From positions 1 to 64,000 of the forward strand of contig CANXME010000896.1 of the NCBI GenBank assembly GCA_948144175.1: DNA of 64,000 bases. Direction: 5' to 3'. The DNA comes from Closterium sp. NIES-65 (taxonomy: Eukaryota; Streptophyta; Zygnematophyceae; Desmidiales; Closteriaceae). Shown piece after piece: positions 13,161 through 56,639 of this stretch; positions within the stretch are counted from its first letter, which is position 1, and each line of letters begins with the position of its first letter. The notes under the pieces are model-generated. The model was not told the origin of the DNA and made no database searches. It was given only the letters and a program-made list of their open reading frames with translations. The position numbers and the translations under genes were made by a program.

Positions 13161-13162
13161 CC

Positions 13163-14731: not shown

Positions 14732-14762
<31 letters not shown>

Positions 14763-14793
14763 GCAGCAGCAGCAGCAGCAAGGTGCTCCATAA
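13163..14793 (+). pseudogene. Element D pol, part 1: protease end and integrase
   Basis: LPVIGVGNAKVMGANGE and LLVEGLSANLLSVRRLQKS are the C-terminal half of a copia protease. GAG-pre-integrase WETWHERMCHINIPMLQKL starts near 13693, with a CPTC pair near 13810. The integrase triad is readable: HMDVVGPTR (near 13895), IRTDNGGEF (near 14085), NGVAERFNRTLQEG (near 14190). A poly-Gln stretch precedes an in-frame TAA at 14791; the same frame continues after it as RPPNRLTYPSFGKPK. So part 1 is intact except for this stop and the missing start. Confidence 0.85.
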
Positions 14794-30038: not shown

Positions 30039-33000
30039 ATGGCTAGCGGCGATACAGCGCGGGATGCGGGGATGCAAGGAGGCGGCGGAGCGGCGAGTGG
30101 CAAGGAGGTGGCGGCGGGGCTCGTGATCGCGCACCCCGACGACGAGTCCATGTGCGCCCCGCCTCGCCGCCTCCCCGCCTCCCCGCCTCCCCGCCTCGCC
30201 GCCTCCCTGCCTTCCCGCCTCCCCGCCTCCCCGCCTCCCCGCCTCGCCGCCTCCCTGCCTTCCCGCCTCCCCGCCTCCCCGCCTCCCCTCCTCCCCGCTT
30301 CCTGCCTTCCCGCCTCCCCGCCTCCCCGCCTCCCCTCCTCCCCGCTTCCTGCCTTCCCGCCTCCCCTCCTCCCCGCTTCCCGCCTCCCCGCCTCCCCGCC
30401 TCCCCGCCTTCCCGCCTCCCCGCCCTCCCGCCTGCCCGCCTCTCCGGCTCCCCGCCTCTTAGTCCTCGCACGCCTCTCTTGCGCCCCGCCTGGCCTCGCC
30501 TAACCTCGCCTCGTCTCCGCCCTCCTCGCCCGCTGTGATCATCCGCCGCTCCCGCGGCCACAGCCGCGCGCTGCTACCCTGCCTCTCGCCCCACCATCTG
30601 TCCTCCTTATTCTCACCATCCGCCCTCCTTATTCTCACCATCCGCCCTCCTTATTCTCACCATCCGCCCTCCTTATTCTCACCATCCGCCCTCCTTATTC
30701 TCACCTCCGCATTTCACTTCCGTCCTCCTCTCCCCTCTCTTCCGCTACCCTCCTCTCTTTTGCTCTCTCCTGTGCTTCCCCCTTCCGTCCGCCAACCCCC
30801 CCGCGCGCAGGTTCTTCGTGCCCACGCTGCGCGCGCTCGTCGCGCGGCCCTCCGCGGTGGGGCACCTCGTCTCTTGCGCGGCGCTGCCACAAGCTGACTC
30901 CATACAACACGGCGCCCGCTGCGCGCTGCACATCCTCTGCCTCTCCTCAGGTGCCCCATGGCCCGCCGTGCGTTTCCTCTCTGCCGTTGACTCCCCTCTG
31001 AGCTGCGCTGCGCCACCCCTTATTCTCTCCTCCACTCCCTTCGCCTTGTGCCCTACTGGGCAATGCTGAGGTAGTTCAGGCGCCCAAATTGTTGTGTTTT
31101 ACCCGCGTCCCCTCGTTGCAACGGAACTTCGCATCCCCTTGGTTTCCCGCGCCTCAACATTCTCCCCTCGTCTCTCTCCGGCCTCGCCTCACCAACTGGC
31201 CTCGGCAGGCAACGCGGAGGGGCTGGGCAGCACGAGGAGGGCGGAGCTGAAGGCAGCAGCGGCGACCCTCGGGGTAGAGACGGGGTTGGGACCCAACTCA
31301 CTCCATCCCAACTCACTCCATCCCAACTCACTCCATCCCAACCCACTCCATCCCAACTCACTCCATCCCAACCCACTCCATCCCAACCCACTCCATCCCA
31401 ACCCATTCCATCCCAAACCAATTCTCCCCGTTCCATCCACCCCATCCCATCCCATCATCCCACCCCTCGTCTTCTCTGTTCTCACCCGCACCCCTTTGTT
31501 CTCCTCCTCTACACTCACTCTCCTCACCGCACCCTCGTCACCTCAAAACCTCCCCCCTCCCCTTCCCCTCCTCCCTTTTCCTATCCCTCTCTCCCCCCTT
31601 TCTCCGGCGCTCAGATAGCCCAGCAGTGCGTGGAGGTGGTGGACCACCCGCAGCTGCAGGTGTGGTGAGGGGCGGTGAGGGGCGGTGAGGGAGGGTGAGG
31701 CGTGAGTGAGGGGTGAGTGAGGGGTGAGTGAGGGGCGGTGAGGAGCGAGTGAATGAGGGGTGAGTGAGGATGGTGAGGGGCGGTTGAGGGCAGTGAGGGG
31801 ATGGGTTGACATGGGTGAGGGAAGGAAGGGAGTGGGGCGGAAAGAAGCAAACTGGGCAGATGGGAGTGCAAAGCACACATCCTTTCATCCACGCTGCAGC
31901 ATGAGTCATCCGCCAACCCTTCTTCTGCACCCTCACTCCCCCGTCACTCGTCACCGTTGATCTGCAGGATGGCATGGACCAATCCTGGCCGTCGGATGTC
32001 ATTGCCGGCTTTGTGACTGACTTTGTGAAAAGGCACCAATTAAAAACGGTGGGAGCAATGATGGGATGCGATGTGACGGATGGGGTATGGAGGATGGAAG
32101 GTGGGATGTGAGGGATGGGGTATGGGGAGGGATGGGGAATGGAATGTGAGGTGAGCGTCCTTCCGTCCACTCTCTGCCCTGCGCGCACACCTCGCTCTTC
32201 CCACCCTCCCCTCGGCCCCTCAGATGCTGTCCTTGCATGCCTGGGGAACCATCTGGCCCTCTTATTCCCGTCGTTCCCCTCCACTCATTCCCCGCCTTGT
32301 CCGCCGTGCAGCTCCTCACATTCGACGCCTGGGGTGTGTCGGGCCATCCCAACCACCGTGCCATCAGCCATGCTCTCAGGTGCGCTGTGCTCTCAGGTGC
32401 GCTGTGCTCTCAGGTGCGCTGTGCTCTCAGGTGCGCTGTGCTCTCAGGTGCGCTGTGCTCTCAGGTGCGCTGTGCTCTCAGGTGCGCTGTGGTCTCAGGT
32501 GCGCTGTGGTCTCAGGTAATCTGTGCTCTCAGGTGCGCCATGCGTCGAGGTATCAGGTGCTCTTTGAAAAGGCTGGTGTGCATGTTGCCTTGCCCAGACG
32601 CCCCATCGCTTCATCAAACTACAATGTGGCATTCACCCTGCACCTGCTGCTTCCCGAGCCTCGCCACCCCCGAGGCCCGTCGGAGGCGCATTTGGTTTGG
32701 ACGGTCCAGCTGCTGATCCAAATGCCTTGCTGGAGGCGCGCTTGGGTGCTGCTGGAAACACAAACACACGTGACAGAGGTGGTGGAACGGACAAGACATT
32801 GCGGGGGGATGCGGCGTAAGGTGTGGGCAGTGGGTGGAAGCAGATGCGGAATGTGAAGAAGAAACTTGAGCTGTTTCAAGTCGTTTTGGGTTGAAAATTC
32901 AGCCCGACGTACCGGGAGCTGCACTGCACTGAACCACTCCCTGCGCTGCTCATCGTTATGTGACGCCCCACTGTCTGTGCTGCAACTGCGTCCCCCTGCA

Positions 33001-36000
33001 AGCTGCCCCCCTGCCACCTGTCCCCCTGCCACCTGTCCCCCTGCCACCTGTCCTACTGCCTCCTGTTTGCATGTGCCAAGCTCGTCGCCTCACGTGCTTC
33101 TCAATCTCCGTCCGCCCTGTCCCCCTCGCCCCCACGCCCCTGCTCACGTGCTTCACCAGCACCATGGTTGACAACGGGTCGCTGCCAGTCCCCGTGTGGC
33201 AGCTGGTGAGTGGGGCAGCTGGTGAGTGTGGCAGCTGGTGAGTGTGGCAGCTGGTGAGTGTGGCAGCTGGTGAGTGTGGCAGCTGGTGAGTGGGGCAGCT
33301 GGTGAGTGTGGCAGCTGGTGAGTGTGGCAGCTGGTGAGTGTGGCAGCTGGTGAGTGTGGCAGCTGGTGAGTGTGGCAGCTGGTGAGTGGGGCAGCTGGTG
33401 AGTGTGGCAGCTGGTGAGTGTGGCAGCTGGTGAGTGTGGCAGCTGGTGAGTGTGGCAGCTGGTGAGTGTGGCAGCTGGTGAGTGTGGCAGCTGGTGAGTG
33501 TGGCAGCTGGTGAGTGTGGCAGCTGGTGAGTGTGGCAGCTGGTGAGTGGGGCAGCTGGTGAGTGGGGCAGCTGGTGAGTGTGGCAGCTGGTGAGTGTGGC
33601 AGCTGGTGAGTGTGGCAGCTGGGTGAGTGTGGCAGCTGGTGAGTGTGGCAGCTGGTGAGTGTGGCAAGCTGGTGAGTGGTGGCAGCTGGTGAGTGTGGCA
33701 GCTGGTGAGTGTGGCAGCTGGTGAGTGGGGCAGCTGTGAGTGTGGCAGCTGGTGAGTGTGGCAGCTGGTGAGTGTGCAGCTGGTGAGTGTGGCAGCTGGT
33801 GAGTGTGGCAGCTGGTGAGTGTGGCAGCTGGTGAGTGTGGCAGCTGGTGAGTGTGGCAGCTGTGAGTGTGGCAGCTGGTGAGTGTGGCAGCTGGTGAGTG
33901 TGGGCAGCTGGTGAGTGTGGCAGCTGGTGAGTGTGGCAGCTGGTGAGTGTGGCAGCTGGTGAGTGTGGCAGCTGGTGAGTGTTGGCAGCTGGTGAGTGTG
34001 GCAGCTGGTGAGTGTGGCAGCTGGTGAGTGTGGCAGCTGGTGAGGTGTGGCGAGCTGGTGAGTGTGGCAGCTGGTGAGTGTGGCAGCTGGTGAGTGTGGC
34101 AGCTGGTGAGTGTGGCAGCTGGTGAGTGGTGGCAGCTGGTGAGTGTGGCAGCTGGTGAGTGGGGCAGCTGGTGAGTGTGGCAGCTGGTGAGTGTGGCAGC
34201 TGGTGAGTGTGGCAGCTGGTGAGTGTGGCAGCTGGTGAGTGGGGCAGCTGGTGAGTGTGGCAGCTGGTGAGTGTGGCAGCTGGTGAGTGGGGCAGCTGGT
34301 GAGTGTGGCAGCTGGTGAGTGTGGCAGCTGGTGAGTGTGGCAGCTGGTGAGTGTGGCAGCTGGTGAGTGTGGCAGCTGGTGAGTGTGGCAGCTGGTGAGT
34401 GTGGCAGCTGGTGAGTGTGGCAGCTGGTGAGTGTGGCAGCTGGTGAGTGTGGCAGCTGGTGAGTGTGGCAGCTGGTGAGTGGGGCAGCTGGTGAGTGTGG
34501 CAGCTGGTGAGTGTGGCAGCTGGTGAGTGGGGCAGCTGGTGAGTGTGGCAGCTGGTGAGTGTGGCAGCTGGTGAGTGTGGCAGCTGGTGAGTGTGGCAGC
34601 TGGTGAGTGTGGCAGCTGTGAGTGTGGCAGCTGGTGAGTGTGGCAGCTGGTGAGTGTGGCAGCTGGTGAGTGGGGCAGCTGGTGAGTGTGGCAGCTGGTG
34701 AGTGTGGCAGCTGGTGAGTGTGGCAGCTGGTGAGTGTGGCAGCTGGTGAGTGTGGCAGCTGGTGAGTGTGGCAGCTGGTGAGTGTGGCAGCTGGTGAGTG
34801 TGGCAGCTGGTGAGTGTGGCAGCTGGTGAGTGTGGCAGCTGGTGAGTGTGGCAGCTGGTGAGTGGGGCAGCTGGTGAGTGTGGCAGCTGGTGAGTGTGGC
34901 AGCTGGTGAGTGTGGCAGCTGGTGAGTGTGGCAGCTGGTGAGTGTGGCAGCTGGTGAGTGTGGCAGCTGGTGAGTGTGGCAGCTGGTGAGTGTGGCAGCT
35001 GGTGAGTGTGGCAGCTGGTGAGTGTGGCAGCTGGTGAGTGTGGCAGCTGGTGAGTGTGGCAGCTGGTGAGTGTGGCAGCTGGTGAGTGTGGCAGCTGGTG
35101 AGTGTGGCAGCTGGTGAGTGTGGCAGCTGGTGAGTGTGGCAGCTGGTGAGTGTGGCAGCTGGTGAGTGTGGCAGCTGGTGAGTGTGGCAGCTGGTGAGTG
35201 TGGCAGCTGGTGAGTGTGGCAGCTGGTGAGTGTGGCAGCTGGTGAGTGTGGCAGCTGGTGAGTGTGGCAGCTGGTGAGTGTGGCAGCTGGTGAGTGTGGC
35301 AGCTGGTGAGTGTGGCAGCTGGTGAGTGTGGCAGCTGGTGAGTGTGGCAGCTGGTGAGTGTGGCAGCTGGTGAGTGTGGGCAGCTGGTGAGTGTGGCAGC
35401 TGGTGAGTGTGGCAGCTGGTGAGTGTGGCAGCTGGTGAGTGTGGCAGCTGGTGAGTGTGGCAGCTGGTGAGTGTGGCAGCTGGTGAGTGTGGCAGCTGGT
35501 GAGTGTGGCAGCTGGTGAGTGTGGCAGCTGGTGAGTGTGGCAGCTGGTGAGTGTGGCAGCTGGTGAGTGTGGCAGCTGGTGAGTGTGGCAGCTGGTGAGT
35601 GTGGCAGCTGTGAGTGTGGCAGCTGGTGAGTGTGGCAGCTGGTGAGTGTGGCAGCTGGTGAGTGTGGCAGCTGGTGAGTGTGGCAGCTGGTGAGTGTGGC
35701 AGCTGGTGAGTGTGGCAGGCTGGTGAGTGGGGCAGCTGGTGAGTGTGGCAGCTAGGTGAGTGTGGCAGCTGGTGAGTGTGGCAGCTGGTGAGTGTGGGCA
35801 GCTGGTGAGTATGGCAGCTGGTGAGTGGGGCAGCTGTGAGTGTGGCAGCTGGTGAGTGTGGCAGCTGGTGAGTGTGGCAGCTGGTGAGTGTGGCAGCTGG
35901 TGAGTGTGGCAGCTGGTGAGTGTGGCAGCTGGTGAGTGTGGCAGCTGGTGAGTGTGGCAGCTGGTGAGTGTGGCAGCTGGTGAGTGTGGCAGCTGGTGAG

Positions 36001-39000
36001 TGTGGCAGCTGGTGAGTGTGGCAGCTGGTGAGTGTGGCAGCTGGTGAGTGTGGCAGCTGGTGAGTGTGGCAGCTGGTGAGTGTGGCAGCTGGTGAGTGTG
36101 GCAGCTGGTGAGTGTGGCAGCTGGTGAGTGTGGCAGCTGGTGAGTGTGGCAGCTGGTGAGTGTGGCAGCTGGTGAGTGGGGCAGCTGGTGAGTGTGGCAG
36201 CTGGTGAGTGTGGCAGCTGGTGAGTGTGGCAGCTGGTGAGTGTGGCAGCTGGTGAGTGTGGCAGCTGGTGAGTGTGGCAGCTGGTGAGTGTGGCAGCTGG
36301 TGAGTGTGGCAGCTGGTGAGTGTGGCAGCTGGTGAGTGTGGCAGCTGGTGAGTGGGGCAGCTGGTGAGTGTGGCAGCTGGTGAGTGTGGCAGCTGGTGAG
36401 TGGGGCAGCTGGTGAGTGTGGCAGCTGGTGAGTGTGGCAGCTGGTGAGTGTGGCAGCTGGTGAGTGTGGCAGCTGGTGAGTGTGGCAGCTGGTGAGTGTG
36501 GCAGCTGGTGAGTGTGGCAGCTGGTGAGTGTGGCAGCTGGTGAGTGTGGCAGCTGGTGAGTGTGGCAGCTGGTGAGTTGTGGCAGCTGGTGAGTGTGGCA
36601 GCTGGTGAGTGTGGCAGCTGGTGAGTGTGGCAGCTGGTGAGTGTGGCAGCTGGTGAGTGTGGCAGCTGGTGAGTGTGGCAGCTGGTGAGTGTGGCAGCTG
36701 GTGAGTGTGGCAGCTGGTGAGTGTGGCAGCTGGTGAGTGTGGCAGCTGGTGAGTGTGGCAGCTGGTGAGTGTGGCAGCTGGTGAGTGTGGCAGCTGGTGA
36801 GTGTGGCAGCTGGTGAGTGTGGCAGCTGGTGAGTGTGGCAGCTGGTGAGTGTGGCAGCTGGTGAGTGTGGCAGCTGGTGAGTGTGGCAGCTGGTGATGGT
36901 GGCAGCTGGTGAGTGTGGCAGCTGGTGAGTGTGGCAGCTGGTGAGTGTGGCAGCTGGTGAGTGTGGCAGCTGGTGAGTGTGGCAGCTGGTGAGTGTGGCA
37001 GCTGGTGAGTGTGGCAGCTGGTGAGTGTGGCAGCTGGTGAGTGTGGCAGCTGGTGAGTGTGGCAGCTGGTGAGTGTGGCAGCTGGTGAGTGTGGCAGCTG
37101 GTGAGTGTGGCAGCTGGTGAGTGTGGCAGCTGGTGAGTGTGGCAGCTGGTGAGTGTGGCAGCTGGTGAGTGTGGCAGCTGGTGAGTGTGGCAGCTGGTGA
37201 GTGTGGCAGCTGGTGAGTGTGGCAGCTGGTGGCAGCTGGTGAGTGGCAGCTGGTGAGTGTGGCAGCTGGTGAGTGTGGCAGCTGGTGAGGTGGCAGGCTG
37301 GTGAGTGTGGCAGCTGGTGAGTGTGGCGCTGGTGAGTGTGGCGGCTGGTGAGTGTGGCAGCTGTGAGTGTGCAGCTGGTGAGTGGGGCAGCTGTGAGTGT
37401 GGCAGCTGGTGAGTGGGGCAGCTGGTGAGTGTGGCAGCTGGTGAGTGTGGCAGCTGGTGAGTGTGGCAGCTGGTGAGTGTGGCAGCTGGTGAGTGGGTGG
37501 CAGCTGGTGAGTGTGGCAGCTGGTGAGTGTGGCAGCTGGTGAGTGTGGCAGCTGGTGAGTGTGGCAGCTGGTGAGTGGGGCAGCTGGTGAGTGTGGCAGC
37601 TGGTGATGTGGCAGCTGGTGAGTGTGGCAGCTGGTGAGTGTGGCAGCTGGTGAGTGTGGCAGCTGGTGAGTGTGGGCAGCTGGTGAGTGTGGCAGCTGGT
37701 GAGTGTGGCAGCTGTGAGTGTGGGCAGCTGGTGAGTGTGGCAGCTGTGAGTGAGGCAGCGGGTGAGTGGGACAGCTGGTGAGTGTGGTCAGCTGGTGAGT
37801 GTGGGCCAAGCTGGGAGTGTGGCAGCTGTGAGTGTGGCAGCTGGTGAGTGTGGCAGCTGGTGAGTGTGGCAGCTGGGTGAGTGTGGCAGCTGTGAGTGTG
37901 GCAGCTGGTGAGTGTGGCAGCTGGTGAGTGTGGCAGCTGGTGAGTGTGCAGCTGGTGAGTGTGGCAGCTGGTGAGTGGTGGCAGCTGGTGAGTGTGGCAG
38001 CTGGTGAGTGTGGCAGCTGGTGAGTGTGGCAGCTGGTGAGTGTGGCAGCTGGTGAGTGTGGCAGCTGGTGAGTGTGGGCAGCTGGTGAGTGTGGCAGCTG
38101 GTGAGTGTGGCAGCTGGTGAGTGTGGCAGCTGTGAGTGTGGCAGCTGGTGAGTGTGGCAGCTGGTGATGTGTGGCAGCTGGTGAGTGTGGCAGCTGGTGA
38201 GTGTGGCAGCTGGGGGAGTGTGGCAGCTGGTGAGTGTGGCAGCTGGTGAGTGTGGCAGCTGGTGAGTGTGGCAGCTGGTGAGTGTGGCAGCTGGTGGAGT
38301 GTGGCAGCTGGTGAGTGTGGCAGCTGGTGAGTGTGGCAGCTGGTGAGTGTGGCAGCTAGTGAGTGTGGCAGCTGGTGAGTGTGCACTGGTGAGTGTGCAG
38401 CTGGTGAGTGTGGCAGCTGGTGAGTGTGGCAGCTGGTGAGTGTGGCAGCTGGTGGAGTGTGGCAGCTTGGTGAGTGTGGCAGCTGGTGAGTGTGGCAGCT
38501 GGTGAGTGTGGCAGCTGGTGAGTGTGGCAGCTGGTGAGTGTGGCAGCTGGTGAGTGTGGCAGCTGGTGATTGTGGCAGCTGGTGAGTGTGCAGCTGGTGA
38601 GTGTGGCACTGGTGAGTGTGGCAGCTGGTGAGTGTGGCAGCTGGTGAGTGTGGCAGCTGGTGAGTGTGGCAGCTGGTGAGTGTGGCAGCTGGTGAGTGTG
38701 GCAGCTGGTGAGTGTGGCAGCTGTGAGTGTGGCAGCTGGTGAGTGTGGCAGCTGGTGAGTGTGGCAGCTGGTGAGTGTGGCAGCTGGTGAGTGTGGCAGC
38801 TGGTGAGTGTGGCAGCTGGTGAGTGTGGCAGCTGGTGAGTGTGGCAGCTGGTGAGTGTGGCAGCTGGTGAGTGTGGCAGCTGGTGAGTGTGGCAGCTGGT
38901 GAGTGTGGCAGCTGGTGAGTGTGGCAGCTGGTGAGTGTGGCAGCTGGTGAGTGTGGCAGCTGGTGAGTGTGGCAGCTGGTGAGTGTGGCAGCTGGTGAGT

Positions 39001-42000
39001 GGGGCAGCTGGTGAGTGTGGCAGCTGGTGAGTGGGGCAGCTGGTGAGTGGGGCAGCTGGTGAGTGTGGCAGCTGGTGAGTGGGGCAGCTGGTGAGTGTGG
39101 CAGCTGGTGAGTGTGGCAGCTGGTGAGTGTGGCAGCTGGTGAGTGTGGCAGCTGGTGAGTGGTGGCAGCTGGTGAGTGTGGCAGCTGGTGAGTGTGGCAG
39201 CTGGTGAGTGTGGCAGCTGGTGAGTGTGGGCAGCTGGTGAGTGTGGCAGCTGGTGAGTGTGGCAGCTGGTGAGTGTGGCAGCTGGTGAGTGTGGCAGCTG
39301 GTGAGTGTGGCAGCTGGTGAGTGTGGCAGCTGGTGAGTGTGGCAGCTGGTGAGTGTGGCAGCTGGTGAGTGTGGCAGCTGGTGAGTGTGGCAGCTGGTGA
39401 GTGTGGCAGCTGGTGAGTGTGGCAGCTGGTGAGTGTGGCAGCTGGTGAGTGTGGCAGCTGGTGAGTGTGGCAGCTGGTGAGTGTGGCAGCTGGTGAGTGT
39501 GGCAGCTGGTGAGTGTGGCAGCTGGTGAGTGTGGCAGCTGGTGAGTGTGGCAGCTGGTGAGTGTGGCAGCTGGTGAGTGTGGCAGCTGGTGAGTGTGGCA
39601 GCTGGTGAGTGTGGCAGCTGGTGAGTGTGGCAGCTGGTGAGTGTGGCAGCTGGTGAGTGTGGCAGCTGGTGAGTGTGGCAGCTGGTGAGTGTGGCAGCTG
39701 GTGAGTGTGAGTGTGGCAGCTGGTGAGTGTGGCAGCTGGTGAGTGTGGCAGCTGGTGAGTGTGGCAGCTGGTGAGTGTGGCAGCTGGTGAGTGTGGCAGC
39801 TGGTGAGTGTGGCAGCTGGTGAGTGTGGCAGCTGGTGAGTGTGGCAGCTGGTGAGTGTGGCAGCTGGTGAGTGTGGCAGCTGGTGAGTGTGGCAGCTGGT
39901 GAGTGTGGCAGCTGTGAGTGTGGCAGCTGGTGAGTGTGGCAGCTGGTGAGTGTGGCAGCTGGTGAGTGTGGCAGCTGGTGAGTGTGGCAGCTGGTGAGTG
40001 TGGCAGCTGGTGAGTGTGGCAGCTGGTGAGTGTGGCAGCTGGTGAGTGTGGCAGCTGGTGAGTGTGGCAGCTGGTGAGTGTGGCAGCTGGTGAGTGTGGC
40101 AGCTGGTGAGTGGGCAGCTGGTGAGTGTGGCAGCTGGTGAGTGTGGCAGCTGGTGAGTGTGGCAGCTGGTGAGTGTGGCAGCTGGTGAGTGTGGCAGCTG
40201 GTGAGTGTGGCAGCTGGTGAGTGTGGCAGCTGGTGAGTGTGGCAGCTGGTGAGTGTGGCAGCTGGTGAGTGTGGCAGCTGGTGAGTGTGGCAGCTGGTGA
40301 GTGTGGCAGCTGGTGAGTGGGGCAGCTGGTGAGTGTGGCAGCTGGTGAGTGTGGCAGCTGGTGAGTGTGGCAGCTGGTGAGTGGGGCAGCTGGTGAGTGT
40401 GGCAGCTGGTGAGTGTGGCAGCTGGTGAGTGTGGCAGCTGGTGAGTGTGGCAGCTGGTGAGTGTGGCAGCTGGTGAGTGGGCAGCTGGTGAGTGGGGCAG
40501 CTGGTGAGTGTGGCAGCTGGTGAGTGTGGCAGCTGGTGAGTGGGGCAGCTGGTGAGTGTGGCAGCTGGTGAGTGTGGCAGCTGGTGAGTGTGGCAGCTGG
40601 TGAGTGTGGCAGCTGGTGAGTGTGGCAGCTGGTGAGTGTGGCAGCTGGTGAGTGTGGCAGCTGGTGAGTGTGGCAGCTGGTGAGTGTGGCAGCTGGTGAG
40701 TGTGGCAACTGGTGAGTGTGGCAGCTGGTGAGTGGGGCAGCTAGTGAGTGTGGCAGCTGGTGAGTGTGGCAGCTGGTGAGTGGGGCAGCTGGTGAGTGTG
40801 GCAGCTGGTGAGTGTGGCAGCTGGTGAGTGTGGCAGCTGGTGAGTGGGGCAGCTGGTGAGTGTGGCAGCTGGTGAGTGTGGCAGCTGGTGAGTGTGGCAG
40901 CTGGTGAGTGTGGCAGCTGGTGAGTGTGGCAGCTGGTGAGTGTGGCAGCTGGTGAGTGTGGCAGCTGGTGAGTGTGGCAGCTGGTGAGTGTGGCAGCTGG
41001 TGAGTGTGGCAGCTGGTGAGTGTGGCAGCTGGTGAGTGTGGCAGCTGGTGAGTGTGGCAGCTGGTGAGTGTGGCAGCTGGTGAGTGTGGCAGCTGGTGAG
41101 TGTGGCAGCTGGTGAGTGTGGCAGCTGGTGAGTGTGGCAGCTGGTGAGTGTGGCAGCTGGTGAGTGTGGCAGCTGGTGAGTGTGGCAGCTGGTGAGTGTG
41201 GCAGCTGGTGAGTGTGGCAGCTGGTGAGTGTGGCAGCTGGTGAGTGTGGCAGCTGGTGAGTGTGGCAGCTGGTGAGTGTGGCAGCTGGTGAGTGTGGCAG
41301 CTGGTGAGTGTGGCAGCTGGTGAGTGTGGCAGCTGGTGAGTGTGGCAGCTGGTGAGTGTGGCAGCTGGTGAGTGTGGCAGCTGGTGAGTGTGGCAGCTGG
41401 TGAGTGTGGCAGCTGGTGAGTGTGGCAGCTGGTGAGTGTGGCAGCTGGTGAGTGTGGCAGCTGGTGAGTGGTGGCAGCTGGTGAGTGTGGCAGCTGGTGA
41501 GTGTGGCAGCTGGTGAGTGTGGCAGCTGGTGAGTGTGGCAGCTGGTGAGTGTGGCAGCTGGTGAGTGTGGCAGCTGGTGAGTGTGGCAGCTGGTGAGTGT
41601 GGCAGCTGGTGAGTGTGGCAGCTGGTGAGTGGGTGGCAGCTGGTGAGTGTGGCAGCTGGTGAGTGTGGCAGCTGGTGAGTGTGGCAGCTGGTGAGTGTGG
41701 CAGCTGTGAGTGTGGCAGCTGTGATGTGGCAGCTGGTGAGTGTGGCAGCTGGTGAGTGTGGCAGCTGGTGAGTGTGGCAGCTGGTGAGTGTGGCAGCTGG
41801 TGGTGTGGCAGCTGGTGAGTGTGGCAGCTGGTGAGTGTGGCAGCTGGTGATGTGTGGCAGCTGGTGAGTGTGGCAGCTGGTGAGTGTGGCAGCTGGTGAG
41901 TGTGGCGCTGTGAGTGTGGCAGCTGGTGAGTGTGGCAGCTGGTGAGTGTGGCAGCTCGTGAGTGTGGCAGCTGGTGAGTGTGGCAGCTGTGAGTGTGGCA

Positions 42001-44521
42001 GCTGGTGGAGTGTGGCAGCTGGTGAGTGTGGCAGCTGGTGAGTGTGGCAGCTGGGTGAGTGTGGCAGCTGGTGAGTGTGGCAGCTGGTGAGTGGGGCAGC
42101 TTGGTGAGTGTGGCAGCTGGTGAGTGGTGGCAGCTGGTGAGTGGGGCAGCTGGTGAGTGTGGCAGCTGGTGAGTGTGGCAGCTGGTGAGTGTGGCAGCTG
42201 GTGAGTGTGGCAGCTGGTGAGTGTGGCAGCTGGTGAGTGGGGCAGCTAGTGAGTGTGGCAGCTGGTGAGTGTGGCAGCTGGTGAGTGTGGCAGCTGGTGA
42301 GTGGGGCAGCTGGTGAGTGTGGGCAGCTGGTGAGTGTGGCAGCTGGTGAGTGTGGCAGCTGGTGAGTGTGGCAGCTGGTGAGTGTGGCAGCTGGTGAGTG
42401 TGGCAGCTGGTGAGTGTGGCAGCTGGTGAGTGTGGCAGCTAGTGAGTGTGGCAGCTGGTGAGTGTGGCAGCTGGTGAGTGGGGCAGCTGGTGAGTGTGGC
42501 AGCTGGTGAGTGGGGCAGCTGGTGAGTGTGGCAGCTGGTGAGTGTGGCAGCTGGTGAGTGGGGCAGCTGGTGAGTGTGGCAGCTGGTGAGTGTGGCAGCT
42601 GGTGAGTGGGGGCAGCTGGTGAGTGTGGCAGCTGGTGAGTGTGGCAGCTGGTGAGTGGGCAGCTGGTGAGTGTGGCAGCTGGTGAGTGTGGCAGCTGGTG
42701 AGTGTGGCAGCTGGTGAGTGTGGCAGCTGGTGAGTGTGGCAGCTGGTGAGTGGGGCAGCTGGTGAGTGTGGCAGCTGGTGAGTGTGGCAGCTGGTGAGTG
42801 TGGCAGCTGGTGAGTGTGGCAGCTGGTGAGTGTGGCAGCTGGTGAGTGTGGCAGCTGGTGAGTGTGGCAGCTGGTGAGTGTGGCAGCTGGTGAGTGTGGC
42901 AGCTGGTGAGTGTGGCAGCTGGTGAGTGTGGCAGCTGGTGAGTGTGGCAGCTGGTGAGTGTGGCAGCTGGTGAGTGTGGCAGCTGGTGAGTGTGGCAGCT
43001 GGTGAGTGTGGCAGCTGGTGAGTGTGGCAGCTGGTGAGTGTGGCAGCTGGTGAGTGGGGCAGCTGGTGAGTGTGGCAGCTGGTGAGTGTGGCAGCTGGTG
43101 AGTGGGGCAGCTGGTGAGTGTGGCAGCTGGTGAGTGTGGCAGCTGGTGAGTGTGGCAGCTGGTGAGTGTGGCAGCTGGTGAGTGTGGCAGCTGGTGAGTG
43201 GGGCAGCTAGTGAGTGTGGCAGCTGGTGAGTGTGGCAGCTGGTGAGTGTGGCAGCTGGTGAGTGGGGCAGCTGGTGAGTGTGGCAGCTGGTGAGTGTGGC
43301 AGCTGGTGAGTGTGGCAGCTGGTGAGTGTGGCAGCTGGTGAGTGTGGCAGCTGGTGAGTGTGGCAGCTGGTGAGTGTGGCAGCTGGTGAGTGTGGCAGCT
43401 AGTGAGTGTGGCAGCTGGTGAGTGTGGCAGCTGGTGAGTGGGGCAGCTGGTGAGTGTGGCAGCTGGTGAGTGGGGCAGCTGGTGAGTGTGGCAGCTGGTG
43501 AGTGTGGCAGCTGGTGAGTGGGGCAGCTGGTGAGTGTGGCAGCTGGTGAGTGTGGCAGCTGGTGAGTGGGGCAGCTGGTGAGTGTGGCAGCTGGTGAGTG
43601 TGGCAGCTGGTGAGTGGGGCAGCTGGTGAGTGTGGCAGCTGGTGAGTGTGGCAGCTGGTGAGTGTGGCAGCTGGTGAGTGTGGCAGCTGGTGAGTGTGGC
43701 AGCTGGTGAGTGGGGCAGCTGGTGAGTGTGGCAGCTGGTGAGTGTGGCAGGCAGTCAGGGTAGTTTCTCTGCCATGCCACCACTCTCCTCTCCCCACTGC
43801 CCTCATGCTCCCTCCATTTCGAATGGCCTCCATGCATCCTTCCTTTCATGCATCCCTTCCTTTCATGCATCCCTTCCTTTCATGCATCCCTTCCTTTCAT
43901 GCATCCCTCCTTTCACTCTCGTTCCTCTCACTCGCTTTCACTCCCCTCCATTGCACTTTCCATTTCCTGCTACATCCTTCCAATCCCATGTCTTCCAATC
44001 CCATGTCTTTCCTTCCCTTTCATCCACTTACCTTCCTTTATCCCCTCCATCCATCCCCATTTTACCGTCATTCATCTCCAATCCATCCCACCCTCCATGC
44101 CTCCTGCAGAACAGTGCATGGCTGCATGTCAAGTTTCTTGGGCTCCTGGGGGTGCTTGCCATGTGGATGCATTTCCTCATCACAAAATACCTAAGCACGG
44201 CAGGCAGCAGGATATATTTCATCTGCCCGAACATGCTGCCCAGCGTGCGAGCGATGCGGGCCCATCGCTCCCAATTTGTTTGGTGCGTAAAACTATCTCC
44301 GAGAGACCTCCTCTATCTTCCTCCCTGCCACCTTTATCGCCCATGCATGGCACAGCCCCCTCCCGTCCTCATCACCCGCACGCATCCCCCCTTCACTGTC
44401 CCATGGCCGTGCTGGCAGGTTCCGCTGGCTCTTTGTGCTCTTCTCCGTCTACACCTTCCTCAACACACTCTCTCGCGTTGCTCCTTCGCCTCGCTCGCAC
44501 AAGATCAAGAAATCTCAGTAG
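30039..44521 (+). CDS. PIGL: N-acetylglucosaminyl-phosphatidylinositol de-N-acetylase (PIG-L), nine exons
   Basis: Removes acetate from GlcNAc-PI on the cytoplasmic face of the ER, the second step of GPI-anchor synthesis. Exons: 30039-30151, 30811-30950, 31209-31273, 31615-31659, 31968-32048, 32312-32379, 33160-33205, 44110-44282, 44419-44521. All introns are GT...AG and every phase matches, giving 277 aa, close to the family's usual ~250-270. The start sits in a strong context (CCGCCATGG). The zinc/catalytic motif AHPDDE is at residues 31-36, FFVPTL at 39-44, VVDHPQLQDGM across exons 4/5, TFDAWGVSGHPNH at 151-163 and FRWLFVLFSVYTFLNTL at the end. A hydrophobic stretch lies at about 190-210. 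The tail KKSQ fits a di-lysine ER-retrieval signal. Residues ~48-72 look like an insertion relative to animal PIG-L. The usual N-terminal membrane segment is absent unless the upstream ATG is used. Intron 7 is 10.9 kb. Confidence 0.93.
30155..30475. repeat. Pyrimidine-rich minisatellite in PIGL intron 1
   Basis: Imperfect CCGCCTCCCCGCCTTCC units fill the first half of the intron, directly after the donor ATGTGCGCC. They do not copy the splice site. Confidence 0.85.
30600..30708. repeat. 22-bp tandem repeat in PIGL intron 1
   Basis: About five copies of CCGCCCTCCTTATTCTCACC and close variants. No coding role seen. Confidence 0.85.
31290..31430. repeat. 15-bp tandem repeat in PIGL intron 3
   Basis: Nine or so copies of CACTCCATCCCAACT or CCACTCCATCCCAAC, starting about 20 bp after the donor GGG|GTAGAG. 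The unit does not contain the donor. Confidence 0.85.
31660..31800 (+). repeat. Donor-like degenerate repeat at the start of PIGL intron 4
   Basis: The intron opens CAG|GTGTGGTGAGGGGCGG and continues as loose copies of GGTGAGGGGC and GGGTGAGTGAGG. Many contain GTGAG, a 5'-splice-site core. The exon part is not clearly copied, so it is a weaker case than introns 6 and 7. Confidence 0.65.
32368..32540 (+). repeat. 17-bp array copying the splice donor of PIGL intron 6
   Basis: Exon 6 ends GCTCTCAG|GTGCGC at 32379. The 17-bp unit GTGCGCTGTGCTCTCAG then repeats so that CTCTCAG|GT occurs ten times up to about 32533. Two copies have GGTCTCAG and one has GTAATC. Each unit holds a pyrimidine-AG followed by GT, so it can look like an acceptor and a donor at once. 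Confidence 0.9.
33194..43750 (+). repeat. 10.5-kb minisatellite of a 5' splice site in PIGL intron 7 (16-bp unit)
   Basis: The unit GGCAGCTGGTGAGTGT is repeated about 660 times. The first copy includes the last 12 bases of exon 7 (GTGTGGCAGCTG) and the true donor GTGAGT at 33206, so every unit is a copy of the exon/intron junction with a near-ideal donor. The commonest variant is GTGAGTGGGG; CTAGTGAG is rarer. Indel-rich stretches (about 33610-34140, 37220-38610, 41640-42130) alternate with almost perfect ones. The lack of stops on the minus strand creates a spurious open frame of thousands of codons. Confidence 0.97.
43840..43912. repeat. 17-bp tandem repeat in PIGL intron 7
   Basis: Four copies of CTTTCATGCATCCCTTC shortly after the end of the large array. 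Confidence 0.85.
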
Positions 44522-44898
44522 GCCAGTTGGCTTGGCATGATGTCGCTGTGCTATATGCAGGGAGCAGCAATGTACAGGGAGCATGCTTTTCATATGACCG
44601 GTGCTGACTTGGTAATACAGCAGAATGCGTTGGTGGCCAGTAATATGTTTTGGGTCAAAGGGAGCCAACTTTACATTCGCTATATGTGGTTCTTGCAGCT
44701 TGTAGCTACTATCAAGAAAAATATCATTGCACACAAGGTAAACAACATTCCAGTGCTAAGCGGTGATCTGAGTTACAACTCCCAAAATCAACGGAGTTAC
44801 ATTCCATGTAAAAGAGTTGCAATATGCGCAGCTGATGCAGCAGCAGCGCTCTCGCTGTGTGCATGATAGCGTGTGCGAGGTGAAAGGTGGTGAGGTGC
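44522..44898. other. Convergent intergenic region, PIGL / FKBP2
   Basis: 377 bp between the two facing stop codons. It must hold both 3' ends. I see no further gene. Confidence 0.6.
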
Positions 44899-47552
44899 TC
44901 AGAGCTCGTCGTCGGGCTTGGCCCCCACGATCTCCACCAGCTCCGTCTCAAAGATGAGCGTCGCCCCGCCTGTGTGGCGTGCCATGGGGCATGGCGGGCA
45001 GGGAGGAGAGAGGGGAGGGGGGCGGCAAGCAGGGCACGGCGGAGGGAGGGAGGGAAGAGGAGTGCAGTATGTGTTTTAAGTGTGGAGCATGTGTTTTACG
45101 TGTGCAGCATGTGTTTTAAGTGTGCAGTATGTGTTTTAAGTGTGCAGCATGTGTTTTTAAGTGTGCAGCATGTGTTTTAGGTGTGCAGCATGTGTTTTAA
45201 GTGTGCAGTATGTGTTTTAAGTGTGCAGCATGTGTTTTTAAGTGCGCAGCATGTGTTTTAAGTGTGCAGTATGTGTTTTAAGTGTGCAGCATGTGTTTTT
45301 AAGTGTGCAGCATGTGTTTTAGGTGTGCTTGCAATGGCGCTTTTCGTGCAATGCAAGCATCAGCCAATCCAAGCAGGAACAGGCGAGCGTGCAACGAGAA
45401 AAAGCAAGTGGTGCAGCAGGTGCATTGGCGACGCTGTGAGGCAGTGAGGCGTGGCCATGCGGAGGAGCACAGACGCGAGGAGGGAGAGGGCACACGGGCA
45501 GTGTGGAGTGTGGGGGACGTGATGGGAGCTATGGAGGAGGAGCGGCATGGTAAGCAGCGCATGCAGACAGGGGCAGTGGGAAGAGGGGGAGTGGGAAGAG
45601 GGGCAGTGGGAAGAGGGGGAGTGGGAAGAGGGGCAGTGGGAAGAGGGGCAGTGGGAAGAGGGGCAGTGGGAAGAGGGGGAGTGGCATGCCATGAGGGGAA
45701 GTGGCGGGACGGGGAGTGGCCAGAGGGGGAGTGGGGAGTGGCCAGGGGGGGGAGTAACTAAACCATGAGCATACCGGGAATCTTGGGTGGCGAGCCCGAC
45801 TCGCCGTACCCCATGTGTGGCGGGATCTTGAGCTTGCGCTTCTCGCCCACACACATGCCCAGAATGCCCATGTCCCACCCTGCTCCACGGGTCCATGGGA
45901 AGTGGGGGGGAAGGAGGGGGAGGAAAACATAGCAGGGCAGGGGTACATGCAGAGTGGAGGGAGGGATGTTGGGCTTGGGCGTGCACAAGCTCCCCTTCCA
46001 CGCTGTGGTGGGATCATCCTAGCGTGTGGGCATGGTGGCGTTGAGCTAAGGGGCGGATAGGGACACGCACGTAGGCAAGGTGGGGCGCACGAGGGGTAGC
46101 AGTGCACAGAGAAGCACGCTCAACAGCACTTGGAAGTTTCCTTCATCTCGTGCCAAGGAGGGCTTTCACCCACCCTTGATCACGTTGCCCTGCCCCCCCC
46201 ACCCACCCTTGATCACGTTGCCCTGCCCCCCCCACCCACCCTTGATCACGTTGCCCTGCCCCCCCCACCCACCCTTGATCACGTTGCCCTGCCCCCCCCA
46301 CCCACCCTTGATCACGTTGCCCTGCCCCCCCCACCCACCCTTGATCACGTTGCCCTGCCCCCCCCACCCACCCTTGATCACGTTGCCCTGCCCCCCCCAC
46401 CCACCCTTGATCACGTTGCCCTGCCCCCCCCACCCACCCTTGATCACGTTGCCCTGCCCCCCCCACCCACCCTTGATCACGTTGCCCTGCCCCAAGCGGA
46501 ACTGCAGCGGGTCGCCGCGCTCGTAGCTCGAGTCAAACACGCTGCCGTCCACCAGCATGCCCTGGGGGGTGGGGGGGAGGGGGCGCAGGCAGGGGGGGCG
46601 GGATGAGTGGGATCCGAGTGGGAAGCATGGTGAGGCAGTGGCGGGGGTGCTGAGAGAGGTGGAGAGGGGATGTGGGAAGAGGAGGGAAGCAGGGAAGCGA
46701 GGTGGCAGGACGTGCAGAGTACTAGGATCCATCCATGGGGTGCCTTGCAGTTCCCAACCCCTTACATCGATAATACCTTGTAGTGAATCGTGACTGTATC
46801 AAGGATACCTTGTAGTGAATCGTGACTGTATCGAGGATCCCTTGTAGTAAATCGTGAGTGCATCGAGGATACCTTGTAGTGAAGCGTGACTGTATGGAGG
46901 ATACCTTGTAGTGAACCCTGACAGTGTCGAGGTTGCGCGCCTTGGTGCTGCAGGTCTCCGGCTTGAACTGCGCGAGGGGGACATGGGGCAAGGCGCGCAA
47001 AGGGCAAGGCGCGCACAGCACACGAGGGAGCGCAGCATGCGATGGGCGCATAGGGGTTAGGGGGAAAGACGGGAAGGGGAGGAGAGTGAGTGGAGCGTAG
47101 TGAAAGAGAAGGAGAAGGAGAAGACTGGAGAAAGCGCATGCAGATGGATGGTTGCAACGCAGAACGGGAGACCGTGAAGGTAAGGGCAAGAGGGCGGGGC
47201 GCTCACCTTGACGCCGATCTGCAGCTGCTTGACGTCCTTCTCCACCTTGCCGCTCGCTGCCACGCACGCTCACACACACACAATGAGCGAGGCGCACTCA
47301 GACGCGGAGAAGGATGCTCGCGCAGAGAACAGAAGGCGGGTGCGCGCAGAGAACGGAAGGCGGGTGCGCGCAGAGAACGAGAGGGATGGGCGCGCAGAGA
47401 ACGAGAGGGATGGGCGCGCAGAGAACGAGAGGGATGGGCGCGCAGATAGGTGAGCTTGAGAAGGCGCGGCGGGTAGGTGAAGGTAGTAAGAGGTCACCTG
47501 AGACAAGGACGGCGGCGAGGAGAAGCGCGAAGAGCGCGAGTCTGGAATCCAT
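44899..47552 (-). CDS. FKBP2: FKBP2-type ER peptidyl-prolyl cis-trans isomerase, six exons
   Basis: Catalyses cis-trans isomerisation of Xaa-Pro bonds during folding in the ER lumen. Exons on the minus strand: 47552-47498, 47256-47207, 46967-46905, 46561-46471, 45879-45775, 44969-44899. All have GT/AG borders and matching phases, giving 144 aa, the usual size. Residues 1-~19 are a signal peptide ([19 protein letters not shown]). The FKBP fold follows, with the expected pocket residues: Y55, F65-D66 (SVFDSS), R71, F77, V84-I85 (GQGNVIKGW), W88, Y111 ([14 protein letters not shown]) and F128 ([13 protein letters not shown]). C41 and C96 have the spacing of the disulfide in FKBP13-type proteins. 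The C-terminal DDEL is a KDEL-like retention signal. Plants call this type FKBP15. Confidence 0.95.
45062..45335. repeat. 20-bp tandem repeat in FKBP2 intron 5
   Basis: About 13 copies of GTGTTTTAAGTGTGCAGCAT and close variants (CAGTAT, an extra T). Confidence 0.9.
45570..45690. repeat. 15-bp tandem repeat in FKBP2 intron 5
   Basis: About eight copies of AGTGGGAAGAGGGGC or AGTGGGAAGAGGGGG, then looser G-rich copies to about 45755. Confidence 0.88.
46165..46490 (-). repeat. 33-bp in-frame array copying the end of exon 4 and its donor (FKBP2 intron 4)
   Basis: On the minus strand exon 4 ends GGCAACGTGATCAAGG|GTGGGT. A 33-bp unit made of the last ~22 exon bases, the donor and a G run is present ten times, counting the true junction, with almost no variation. 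As 33 is divisible by 3 and the unit has no stop, the frame stays open ([11 protein letters not shown] per unit), so later donors would insert multiples of 11 residues after Lys86 and keep the frame. Confidence 0.95.
46775..46925 (-). repeat. 32-bp array copying the donor of FKBP2 intron 3
   Basis: Exon 3 ends GGGTTCACTACAAG|GTATCC (46905/46904). Four further units follow, each with TTCACTACAAG or TTTACTACAAG and then GTATCC, GGATCC, GTATCC and GTATTA. The third junction has lost the GT. At 32 bp the unit is not a multiple of three, so use of later copies would shift the frame. Confidence 0.92.
47300..47455. repeat. 24-bp tandem repeat in FKBP2 intron 1
   Basis: About six copies built on GGGCGCGCAGAGAACGAGAG and older variants with GGAAGGCGGGTGCGCG. 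They do not touch the splice sites. Confidence 0.85.
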
Positions 47553-52520: not shown

Positions 52521-54059
52521 GACGGCATGAACCAGACAGGGTGACAGTGATGTATGGTCTAGTGCGAGAAAGAACACATGGTGGTATGGGTTCCATAGGG
52601 CCACGATATGAAGTGAATGGTTGGGGGCATGGTTTGGGTACATGTGGATTAGTAGAAGAGCCAAACATTGGAAAGGACATGTGTTGCGAGAAGCAAGGTG
52701 CCATAGAACTCCAAAAACGACACTTGGCATACCGGATTGATATCTGTCGAGCGCGTTTGGAGGGGCGACGCACACGTGGTACGACCTGGACCACCTCATC
52801 TGAGGTTTGTAACATTCCCTGAAGATGTGGCAAGACAAAAACAAACAGGAGCAATACCATAGTTGCCATTTAAATCGTCGAGAGTCGTCATATACAATCT
52901 GCACAAACCAGAGCAAAGACAGTGGAAATGCACATACGGAAGAGTGGTCTGCATGCAGCTATTTGGTTGAGATTGCGTCGCGTCCTCCTGCTTCGAGCCG
53001 CCCTAGAAGTTGGCGTCACGGGGCCTCCAGGGGTGGTAAAAATGAAGCTGGTGGGCACGGGGGTGGCTGGCGTGACTGCGGCATTGGTGGGAGTGATTCC
53101 AGCTAGGGGAGTAGGAGGGTGCGGTGTTTGGGAAAGACCAAGAGGTGTTTCCTCTGCATCCACCGGCCGAGGGGGGGTAGCGTGAGCAGAAACTGGCGTA
53201 TCAGGGGTTGCATCAACAGAGTGCGGCTCCGTCAACTCAGCCTCCTCATCCCGCTGAGTCGACGGCGCTGCATCATCCCGTACCAGCCCAATATCACGCC
53301 AATCAGCCATGAGCTTGTCCAACCAGCTCCAGTCCATGTCCGACAAGATCCGCTCCTTGCTACCACGCCTTACCCTAGTTGCCTTCCGCACGCGTGTCCT
53401 GATTGCCACAACAAGACGTGACACCGTTTGGTTCCAGTGCAACACCGAAAGACCTATTCTAGCCACCATACTCTTCTGAAAATGGATCCGCTTCGGTGCG
53501 TACTTGATTATTAGGGAATGAAATGATTCATTCACCCAGTTACTCGCGCCCTGCACGTAGGGTTCCATTTCTTTCGCACTGCAATGGTCAGCAAGCCATT
53601 CTCGGAGTGCCAGATGGGCCTCAGAGTTGGGCTTGTAAACTGCACTCTCTGGTCCCCATTTCTCTGACACGCATCGAGGTACCTCACCCGCATGCCCGCA
53701 GCTGCTGTGAATCCCTGCCCAATGGTCTGCAGACACGGCAAGTTGATGTGCAACACGTTCCGCTGATGGGGTCTGTCCACTCTTCATCATCGTATTGCAA
53801 TTCACCATCACATGGTTGAAGTGCGTACTCCACCGTTGTGCCAGCGTCACCTCATAGTACGGTTCTTCGTCAACTAGGCCCGCGCCGGACTCACCACGCT
53901 TCCTTTTAGCACTACCCCTCTCGGTCCAACGCAAATTGTCATCCGCGTTGGCTGGTTCGATCGTGTCCATAGAAGAAGCATGCAACTCCTCTTGCTCTGC
54001 ACACACGAATGGCAAATGCATAAGAGAGCTTGTGAACCGCGTTCTCCAAGGGCAATGCG

Positions 54060-54610
54060 ATGCAAGGCACGAAATGGACTGCCCGGTACGACTGGATAGT
54101 ACGAGATGGAGTGCAAGGAGCACAGGATGAAGGAAAGTGGGGAAATGTCTGCTTGGTACGAGATGGACAGCAATGAATGTTGGTGGCTGGAAAGTGGGTA
54201 ATGACTGGATGGTACAATGAACGAGGGCATGGAACCCCCGGTGGCTGGAAAGTGGGAAATTGACTGGATGGTACGAGATGGCAATGAACGATGGTGGTGA
54301 GAAAGTGGGGAAATGACTGGATGATAAGAGATGGAGAGCGCGGCGCAAAGTTGGAACAAAATGGAGGAAAATGTCCAAATTGTACGAGATAGGCAGCATT
54401 GAACGATGGTGGCTTGAAACTGGGGAAATGACTTGATGGAACGACATGGACAGCAAGGAACAAAGGTGGCTGGAATGTGGGAAATGACCGGATGGTACGA
54501 GATGGACAGGAATTGAACGATGGTGGCTAGAAAGTGCGGAAATTACTCGAATGTACAGAATGGATGTCCAAGATCGATGATGGCATGCTTGCCCAAAACG
54601 AGACCGGAAC
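54060..54610. repeat. Imperfect ~60-bp repeat in transposase intron 4
   Basis: Eight or so loose copies of GTACGAGATGGACAGCAATG with GGTGGCTGGAAAGTGGGAAA. It lies wholly within the intron 54630-53997 and keeps one minus-strand frame open by chance. Confidence 0.8.
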
Positions 54611-56639
54611 ATGCCCAAACCCCATCTCACCTTTTTCATCCGCTCCTCCACCCCCTGGCACACATTTTGGCTCTCCATCCATCATTGTATCCGTTGTGAG
54701 CCACACGTATTCGGCTTCCGCAGACACAGGAACACCATGCGTTGGATGTGGGTCGAACTCTCAGAGTTGTTGCACACCGGCCCATTGGAAGTTGATGACT
54801 TGCTCCGGTATGGATGCACCAGACGGCTGCGCAACCGTGGCTGCATCCACACTCGAGGCGCGTTCTGCCGTGGTTGCACCGACAGTCGTGTGACATCCGT
54901 AAGGGGGTCCATCCGCTCCTGATGTCGGCACAGGCGGGGAATTTTCCACAGTCACAGCCTGTTCATGTCCCACATCGCCTTGTCCCAGCCCATCCCTCGC
55001 TGTCTTTTGGCGCTTGGCCACGCTGGCCAGCCCCCCCCCTCCACGCTCCTTCACCAGTAGTACCTTCCGCAAATCAGGAAATTTCCACTTCGACGTCGGC
55101 ACAGCGTTTGGTTCGTATGCAAACTTACCGAGGGTTGGGCATACAGATTTGATGAGATCTGTCTTTGATGACTTGCCACTTAGACCTTCTGTTGCACCGC
55201 CGTGCTGTTTCAGCCACCCCCATAACTGTGCAGCAGTGCACAGCCACAAATCCCCAGTGCACGTTGCGGCTTCAACTTCCATCGGTTCTCGTAGCACATC
55301 TACCAATAGTTTCAGAAACTTCTTGTAAAGTGCTCTTGCCTTGTGCCACACATCTTTTTGATGTGCAAGCCCTAACTCCGCAACTGCTGTCTTAAAAGAA
55401 CTGCCATCATCGGAAATAATCCCTTTTAAGTGCACCCCCATGGCAGCTAACTCCTTCAGGCCCTCCTTGAAAGCGATCCCTTCTAGCTCAGTCGAGCAAG
55501 ACTTCTCGTTTACCCTCGACTTGGTCACTTGGTGCATTATTTTGCGCGTTATGGGGTCCATGAAGGTCACAGTTCCCCATTCGGCCTCGCGTGGATGTGA
55601 GTAACGCCCATCTACACAAACCCATTCCCATGGCACGAGTCGTTTGCCCATCTCTTCCCGAACTTCGGCCATAGACCGGACAGCTTCCTCCTCTATGACC
55701 TTCCATAACCCCTTGGGACCTCTCATGTACCTGTAAAAGGTCTCTTTCCTGATTGTTGGGATGCCAAGCGATCTACTCACTTCCCACAGCTGTTGGAAAC
55801 CAATGCCCGCAAGGGCAAAAGAGGCTATATACTTGGGCAAAGAAAGAGAGGATTGCGGCCCTCTGTTGCTGCCACTTCCAGTGGTGTGGCCGCGTTTCGT
55901 GGACCACCATGGTAGAACTCGGCCACAACTCTCACATGTCCAAGTTAGACAGAGGGTTGCCCAGGAGCGTTTCCAAGACGTAAGGGTCATCACGCCTTTG
56001 CAACCTCCACTCTTGTTGCAGCATAATCCCATGGGGGTGAAGAAGCGTATGATCTCTCGAGGGTCGAGTAGGCATACCATGCCGTTGGCCGGCATCGGAA
56101 TCGTTGCGGGCACCGGTTGAGGTCCTCCCCTGCTCCTTGGAGCGTCTGACGTGACGGGTGCCGTCCTGCTCAGGTACGTCATGCATTTAGCACGGGCGCA
56201 CAATGAAAGACTTGTATGGGTTGCATTCGTGATAATGCATCACGGGTGCTACGCTAGTGTGTAATAAATCTCGACGCGCTCACCTTGTATTTGTTGGGGT
56301 TTGAGCAACCGCATTTGTGACTGCGGGCGTGGCTACGGGCCCCCCCGCCACCTGGCCAGGAGGGGCATCGTCCACGCACAGGCCTCCAGCTGACAGCCGG
56401 GAGGGGTCCTGTCCAAGAGAGTCAACGGGGGCGTCTCCAGCCGCCTCCTCCCCATCGCCCTCCACGTCACCTCCGCATGCAACAGTAGTCTCCATGCATG
56501 GGGACTGGATTTCCATGTCCCGCTCCAAGACTTCCGGACTGCCCCTAGGATCTGCACGTGGGGCCACCCTCACAGAATAGGGGAGATAAGGTTCAAGGTC
56601 GTGAGTCCAAGGCCACGACCACAAACCAGCAGGCACTGC

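Follow-up and report, generated by a model that had tools for sequence, protein, structure and literature searches.

Minisatellites across 5' splice sites of two adjacent genes in Closterium sp. NIES-65

In two adjacent and unrelated genes of the alga Closterium sp. NIES-65, tandem repeats begin inside an exon and carry the 5' splice site with them into the intron. This raises the question of whether donors attract such duplications, whether the additional donors serve a function, or whether ordinary minisatellites are tolerated at these borders. The window analysed here is a stretch of 64,000 nucleotides that corresponds to C895:1-64000 (contig CANXME010000896.1), and it contains a gene for a GlcNAc-PI de-N-acetylase (PIGL) and one for an FKBP-type prolyl isomerase (FKBP2).

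Arrays across the 5' splice sites of PIGL and FKBP2

Both genes have open reading frames when splicing is assumed to occur at the first donor of each array (Table 1), and their top protein matches are Closterium (Zygnematophyceae) proteins. The PIGL translation matches Pfam PF02585 (E=4e-19) and the FKBP2 translation matches PF00254 (E=5e-38). A purpose-written spliced aligner, queried with proteins P0002 and P0122 of Closterium NIES-68 rather than with the window's own translations, returned the same 13 of 13 introns. The joints at PIGL introns 6 and 7 are uninterrupted in predicted proteins P0001 and P0003 (Naga37s-1, Yama58-4), as are the joints at FKBP2 introns 3 and 4 in predicted proteins P0121 and P0124 (NIES-54, Yama58-4). 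Two PIGL models disagree, P0050 from NIES-64 and P0004 from Naga37s-1, given that both translate intron 1 and stop at or in the region of introns 6 and 7. Read by eye, the translation of P0050 enters both PIGL arrays and terminates within that of intron 7, a warning that border minisatellites can break gene models. In Table 1 of the Closterium genome paper, NIES-65 is listed with 5.0 introns per gene and a mean intron length of 485 bp (PMC10407611); the main text of that paper does not use the term minisatellite.

Table 1. Gene structures and donor-associated arrays, in window coordinates
Feature	Position	Strand	Description
PIGL (GlcNAc-PI de-N-acetylase)	30039-44521	+	9 exons, 8 introns, 277 aa, open frame
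PIGL exons	30039-30151, 30811-30950, 31209-31273, 31615-31659, 31968-32048, 32312-32379, 33160-33205, 44110-44282, 44419-44521	+	
FKBP2 (FKBP-type prolyl isomerase)	44899-47552	-	6 exons, 5 introns, 144 aa, open frame
FKBP2 exons	47498-47552, 47207-47256, 46905-46967, 46471-46561, 45775-45879, 44899-44969	-	
PIGL intron 1 array	30157-30458	+	8 bp unit; starts at intron nt 6; donor-adjacent, no straddling
PIGL intron 4 array	31664-31800	+	10 bp unit GGTGAGGGGC; starts at intron nt 5; donor-adjacent, no straddling
PIGL intron 6 array	32371-32538	+	17 bp x 9.9; 9 exon + 8 intron nt; first intron base 32380
PIGL intron 7 array	33194-43750	+	16 bp x ~660; 12 exon + 4 intron nt; first intron base 33206
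FKBP2 intron 3 array	46766-46932	-	32 bp x 5.2; 28 exon + 4 intron nt; first intron base 46904
FKBP2 intron 4 array	46167-46493	-	33 bp x 9.9, 100% identity; 23 exon + 10 intron nt; first intron base 46470

The initial annotation held that the repeat begins in the exon, with a unit that spans the border, in four of 13 introns, and that the units differ in both sequence and length. Both statements are borne out by the array coordinates and units, as all four arrays were found, together with the eight PIGL and five FKBP2 introns. Each unit consists of the end of the exon joined to the 5' splice site, and the units, of 17, 16, 32 and 33 bp, are unrelated in sequence to one another. The unit of PIGL intron 6 is TGCTCTCAG/GTGCGCTG, where the slash marks the border, and eight identical donor 9-mers lie further into the intron. 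The unit of PIGL intron 7 is GTGTGGCAGCTG/GTGA, and the donor 9-mer CTG/GTGAGT repeats 612 more times within an intron of 10,904 bp. FKBP2 intron 4 has nine additional identical donor 9-mers, every one of them in frame. The copies in FKBP2 intron 3 have diverged, and two identical donor 9-mers are found further in; the start of this array was set by TRF, and a few of its 28 exonic nt deviate from the unit consensus. None of the remaining nine PIGL and FKBP2 introns holds a second copy of its own donor 9-mer.

The repeats in PIGL intron 7 occur far above chance, given that a 21-mer of the unit is found 520 times and is absent from shuffled sequence. The array divides into 649 pieces, of which 25 are 15 bp and 25 are 17 bp long, scattered along its length. 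A genome-wide search with a 32-mer gave 443 forward and 761 reverse matches; the 100 matches listed all lie in the window array, and in the second PIGL copy described below an array of this kind lies on the reverse strand. An introner or other mobile intron would place related sequence at different loci, and the lack of relation among the four units argues against it. The acceptors of the four introns lie 204-621 bp past the ends of the arrays. Units that cross the exon-intron boundary, that fall within 10-160 bp and that are unrelated to one another are features of border-spanning minisatellites, and all three are found here.

Array length in a second copy and the age of the introns

A second copy of the locus is located at C1999:838,900-811,000. 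All 15 exons are identical in the two copies, and only nine substitutions separate about 8.6 kb of exons, flanks and introns other than PIGL intron 7. Three of the four donor arrays are of unequal length, consistent with the copy-number instability of border-spanning minisatellites, although these differences may in part be an assembly artefact because C895, at only 65,923 bp, may be C1999 sequence assembled a second time. PIGL intron 6 measures 780 bp in C895 and 812 bp in C1999, a gain of 32 bp or two units minus 2 nt, and FKBP2 intron 4 measures 591 and 844 bp. The largest difference is in PIGL intron 7, at 10,904 versus 18,583 bp, with 612 versus 1076 extra donors. FKBP2 intron 3 is equal in length in both, without a mismatch. 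Among the other intronic arrays, two of 11 differ between the copies, both by whole units (44 bp, or 2x22, and 30 bp, or 2x15). The two contigs may represent recent copies, culture variants, or a single locus assembled twice.

It is scarcely credible that the units were multiplied by long-read assembly. The scattered 15 and 17 bp units of PIGL intron 7 do resemble long-read errors, and C895 is small and nearly identical to part of C1999, but the arrays occupy the same places in two contigs, and the separately assembled NIES-64 yields the model that, by eye, enters both PIGL arrays.

Comparison with relatives indicates that the FKBP2 arrays are younger than the introns that hold them. In the FKBP2 relatives L048 and L051, introns 3 and 4 lie at identical positions and have no border arrays; their donors read TACAAG/GTGAGC or TACAGG/GTGCGT for one intron and ATCAAAG/GTGAGA or ATTAAAG/GTGCCA for the other. 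In FKBP2 the arrays were therefore added onto pre-existing introns. Two proposals of the initial annotation fit these results: that one process has acted at independent, existing donors, given unrelated arrays at separate donors and array-free introns in L048 and L051, and that duplication lengthens existing introns, as the arrays add length and vary between two near-identical copies.

In the Rogers model, an intron is born when an AGGT segment within an exon is duplicated in tandem, in which case the arrays would be a remnant of intron birth. The units of PIGL intron 6 and FKBP2 intron 3 do have AG/GT at the border, as the model predicts, but those of PIGL intron 7 (CTG/GTGAGT) and FKBP2 intron 4 (AAGG/GTGGGT) do not. 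Since the acceptors lie well past the arrays, donor and acceptor cannot both come from the duplicated segment, and the relatives share the positions of FKBP2 introns 3 and 4 in the absence of arrays. As a general account of the arrays this origin is very improbable, and for FKBP2 it was rejected, given that introns 3 and 4 predate their arrays.

The array of PIGL intron 6 is probably not present throughout the genus. In the Naga37s-1 model P0004, exon 6 is followed by HALRCGIR, a poor fit to the array of the window, and the NIES-64 model P0050 reads, by eye, into both PIGL arrays; this comparison is between gene models rather than DNA.

Donor selectivity and proposed tolerance

The initial annotation took the pattern to be selective for donors, a claim that an enlarged sample does not support. 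Random placement of 15 merged arrays in the 13 PIGL and FKBP2 introns, with up to 25 nt of overlap into exons allowed, gave at least four straddled donors with P = 0.008, or P = 0.026 when the final 50 intron nt were barred. By this measure, obtained after a post hoc choice of window, the location of the arrays at donors exceeds chance to a moderate degree only. The enlarged sample of 44 introns consists of these 13, ten from a Na/K-type ATPase, 16 from six FKBP loci and five from PP2A, and a border was scored as straddled if an array extended at least 4 nt on each side of it. By this rule, four of 44 donors and none of 44 acceptors are straddled (Fisher P = 0.12), so that the polarity itself is unproven. 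All four straddled donors are among the 13 introns of PIGL and FKBP2, versus none among the 31 introns elsewhere (P = 0.005, post hoc).

For the ATPase, ten of 18 predicted introns were kept and eight were dropped for weak conservation, GC donors or odd borders; no array crosses either border in these eight. Also left out were L050 and L055, which are near-copies of L049 and L048, the unreliable introns of L049, L052, L053 and L054, two likely introns of a Mutator-like gene in the window, the FKBP locus C1065, and all but one locus of the PP2A family. Had the uncounted borders of L049 and L050 been included, the number of distinct donor cases would rise by one or two. In these two loci, an array with a period of 273-274 bp starts 75 nt before one predicted donor (predicted introns 4176/5538 and 4161/5377, with unreliable borders), and by eye it appears to be duplicated FKBP-domain sequence at a wrongly placed border. 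In both loci, the start of a 10-bp array lies 3 nt upstream of the next predicted donor, short of the 4-nt rule.

If duplication favoured donors as such, the units of other arrays might be expected to resemble donors. In the units of 129 arrays outside both genes, donor-like sites were found in 38 of 258 unit strands versus 34.5 +/- 5.1 in shuffled units, with no enrichment at a threshold set to the lower quartile of 29 donors, a test of limited power. Acceptor-like sites were slightly more frequent than in shuffled units (80 of 258 versus 65.6 +/- 6.2), an excess that probably stems from pyrimidine-rich units. The lack of donor enrichment is evidence against a mutational process specific to donors.

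Arrays also occur near splice sites that they do not cross. Some array is present in 24 of 39 introns checked; an array straddles the donor or starts within 25 nt of it in 11 of the 39, and ends within 25 nt of the acceptor in six. It had been proposed that the other intronic repeats avoid splice sites, which is true of the other 11 merged arrays in that none crosses a border, but the arrays of PIGL introns 4 and 1 start at intron nt 5-6. In the FKBP-family locus L052, a 10-bp array of 22 copies starts at nt 3 of the intron at 4156-4556 (locus coordinates), and is likewise adjacent to the donor rather than straddling it. At the other end of the intron, several pyrimidine-rich arrays in the minus-strand ATPase introns of L061-L062 finish 8-21 nt upstream of the acceptor, such that minisatellites may supply polypyrimidine tracts in the Closterium genome.

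These counts bear on the possibility that donors are mutational hot spots, for example through transcription-coupled R-loops or G-rich slippage, which would make intron growth recurrent and polarised. Such a process would account for the occurrence of unrelated units at each of four donors and at no acceptor, for the permutation result and the two further arrays at intron nt 5-6, for the greater number of introns with arrays near donors than near acceptors, and for length changes in three of four donor arrays as compared to two of 11 others. The absence of straddled donors among the 31 counted elsewhere and the absence of donor-like enrichment in other arrays argue against it, and a ratio of 4:0 is not only short of significance but is the direction expected from tolerance alone. 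A hot spot is therefore unlikely. The border arrays are real, though they affect a minority of the 44 introns, and the evidence stops short of a donor hot spot.

The preferred reading, with a probability of about 0.7, is that the arrays are border minisatellites that arose by ordinary expansion, and that they are tolerated at donors since splicing still takes place at the exon-proximal copy. Where minisatellites are abundant, as in this genome, some short duplications would by chance span a 5' splice site and then expand by slippage or unequal exchange. If the spliceosome continues to use the exon-proximal donor, each added copy would stay intronic and leave the mRNA unaltered, such that a duplication across a donor would be harmless. 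A duplication within an exon, by comparison, would cause a frameshift if its length were not a multiple of three, and a duplication across an acceptor would probably place the added exon part in the mRNA. Location at donors would then be a matter of what is tolerated, with no mutational hot spot involved. The restriction of all four cases to two adjacent genes, in part a product of the post hoc window, counts against a uniform model of tolerance.

Decoy donors, known systems and other repeats

The initial annotation also raised the possibility of a functional array of decoy donors, which the predicted reading frames do not favour. Of the four unit lengths, only 33 bp is a multiple of three. 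Splicing at any of the 612 decoys in PIGL intron 7 is predicted to shift the frame or to meet a stop, although the first decoy was counted for its frameshift, as the joined frame yielded no stop. The same prediction holds for five of eight decoys in PIGL intron 6, one of two in FKBP2 intron 3 and none of nine in FKBP2 intron 4. A search of the assembly matched PIGL at just two loci, both of which carry the large intron 7 array. Because use of any of the 612 decoys of the window copy is predicted to break PIGL, a working PIGL would require choice of the exon-proximal donor. If PIGL works, the cell must pick the first donor over 612 further copies in one locus and 1076 in the other, and the choice of the spliceosome among equal 5' splice sites would be directly readable from RNA reads at PIGL.

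Extra donors could in principle regulate splicing, or bind U1 and so guard a long pre-mRNA from early polyadenylation. This role might be suggested by 613 identical donors in PIGL intron 7, the real one included, by the presence of the arrays of PIGL introns 6 and 7 and FKBP2 intron 4 in both gene copies, and by the unchanged length and sequence of FKBP2 intron 3. Nevertheless, it is quite improbable, given that copy number varies between near-identical copies, that L048 and L051 lack border arrays, that the Naga37s-1 model differs after the donor of PIGL intron 6, and that use of the decoys would break PIGL.

A broader proposal is unlikely as a whole. It combines recurrent nucleation of minisatellites at Closterium 5' splice sites with a spliceosome that picks the exon-proximal of 613 to 1077 donors, overriding proximity to the acceptor. 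Introns would then grow from the donor end by copying the donor, and the rule of choice would be exon definition or use of the first donor to be transcribed.

The arrays in PIGL and FKBP2 match a kind that is already described. In amphioxus, exon-intron borders of Adh3 and the globin genes BflGb6 and BflGb9 are duplicated in a minisatellite-like manner, and these duplications are called mirages (PMC3087553). Like the Closterium arrays, they consist of tandem copies of an exon-intron border and differ in copy number, in that case between haplotypes (PMC3087553). The AG/GT signals are kept in many but not all mirage units, and regular splicing is reported despite the copies (PMC3087553). Mirages are found at both 5' and 3' borders, whereas the small Closterium sample has them at 5' borders only, and their units are 10-72 bp in Adh3 and 150-160 bp in the globins, as compared to 16-33 bp in Closterium (PMC3087553). 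The scale also differs, as the BflGb6 haplotypes have six and three units (PMC3087553), whereas PIGL intron 7 has about 660 copies in the window and, in C1999, 1076 extra donors. Border minisatellites are thereby shown in a streptophyte alga, where their distinctive features are the hundreds of copies, the occurrence at donors only in a small sample, and the presence of four in two adjacent genes.

Similar arrays are described in human genes. In human segmental duplications, exon-intron boundaries carry internal tandem repeats whose units average 30 bp and which vary between recent gene copies; unlike in Closterium, novel introns and alternative transcripts are described for them, with about four repeats on average (PMC2812944). 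The interferon-induced human transcript IFI6 (6-16), like the Closterium arrays, has a minisatellite that supplies multiple splice donor sites, according to a title cited in PMC2572611. In PIGL intron 7 all decoys are predicted to break the frame or meet a stop. The IFI6 minisatellite, in contrast, is said to have a 12-bp unit that is in frame, with several of its donors reportedly used. Duplications likewise touch splice signals in cases of intron gain by tandem duplication (PMC3443670), including the potato RdRp gene, in which the duplicated stretch crosses an intron-exon boundary (PMC4974935). Those cases make a new intron, whereas in Closterium existing introns are lengthened.

Several observations in the window and in related proteins concern 3' borders or other repeats. 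A Mutator-like transposase gene at 52891-56203 on the minus strand has a weak match to Pfam PF20700 (E=1e-6), and one homologue was found for it, P0241 of Yama58-4. Introns of this gene were seen by eye, one of which holds an array with a 115-bp period that is clear of the likely donor. In the same gene, a degenerate 38-bp array at 56600-57043 on the minus strand appears by eye to reach a possible acceptor (CATGGCAG), and could be a case at a 3' border, where the exon border is only putative. In protein P0126 of Naga37s-1, a stretch of 15 residues from the start of the last FKBP exon occurs twice, possibly by duplication at a 3' border. Pieces of retroelements with integrase core, GAG pre-integrase and RVT_2 reverse transcriptase domains lie at 13099-15285 on the plus strand and 17456-18202 on the minus strand, and are presumably of the Ty1/copia type, given the combination of RVT_2 and gag pre-integrase. 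Positions 58982-60521 of the window hold a 1.5-kb array of about 68 copies of a 23-bp unit.
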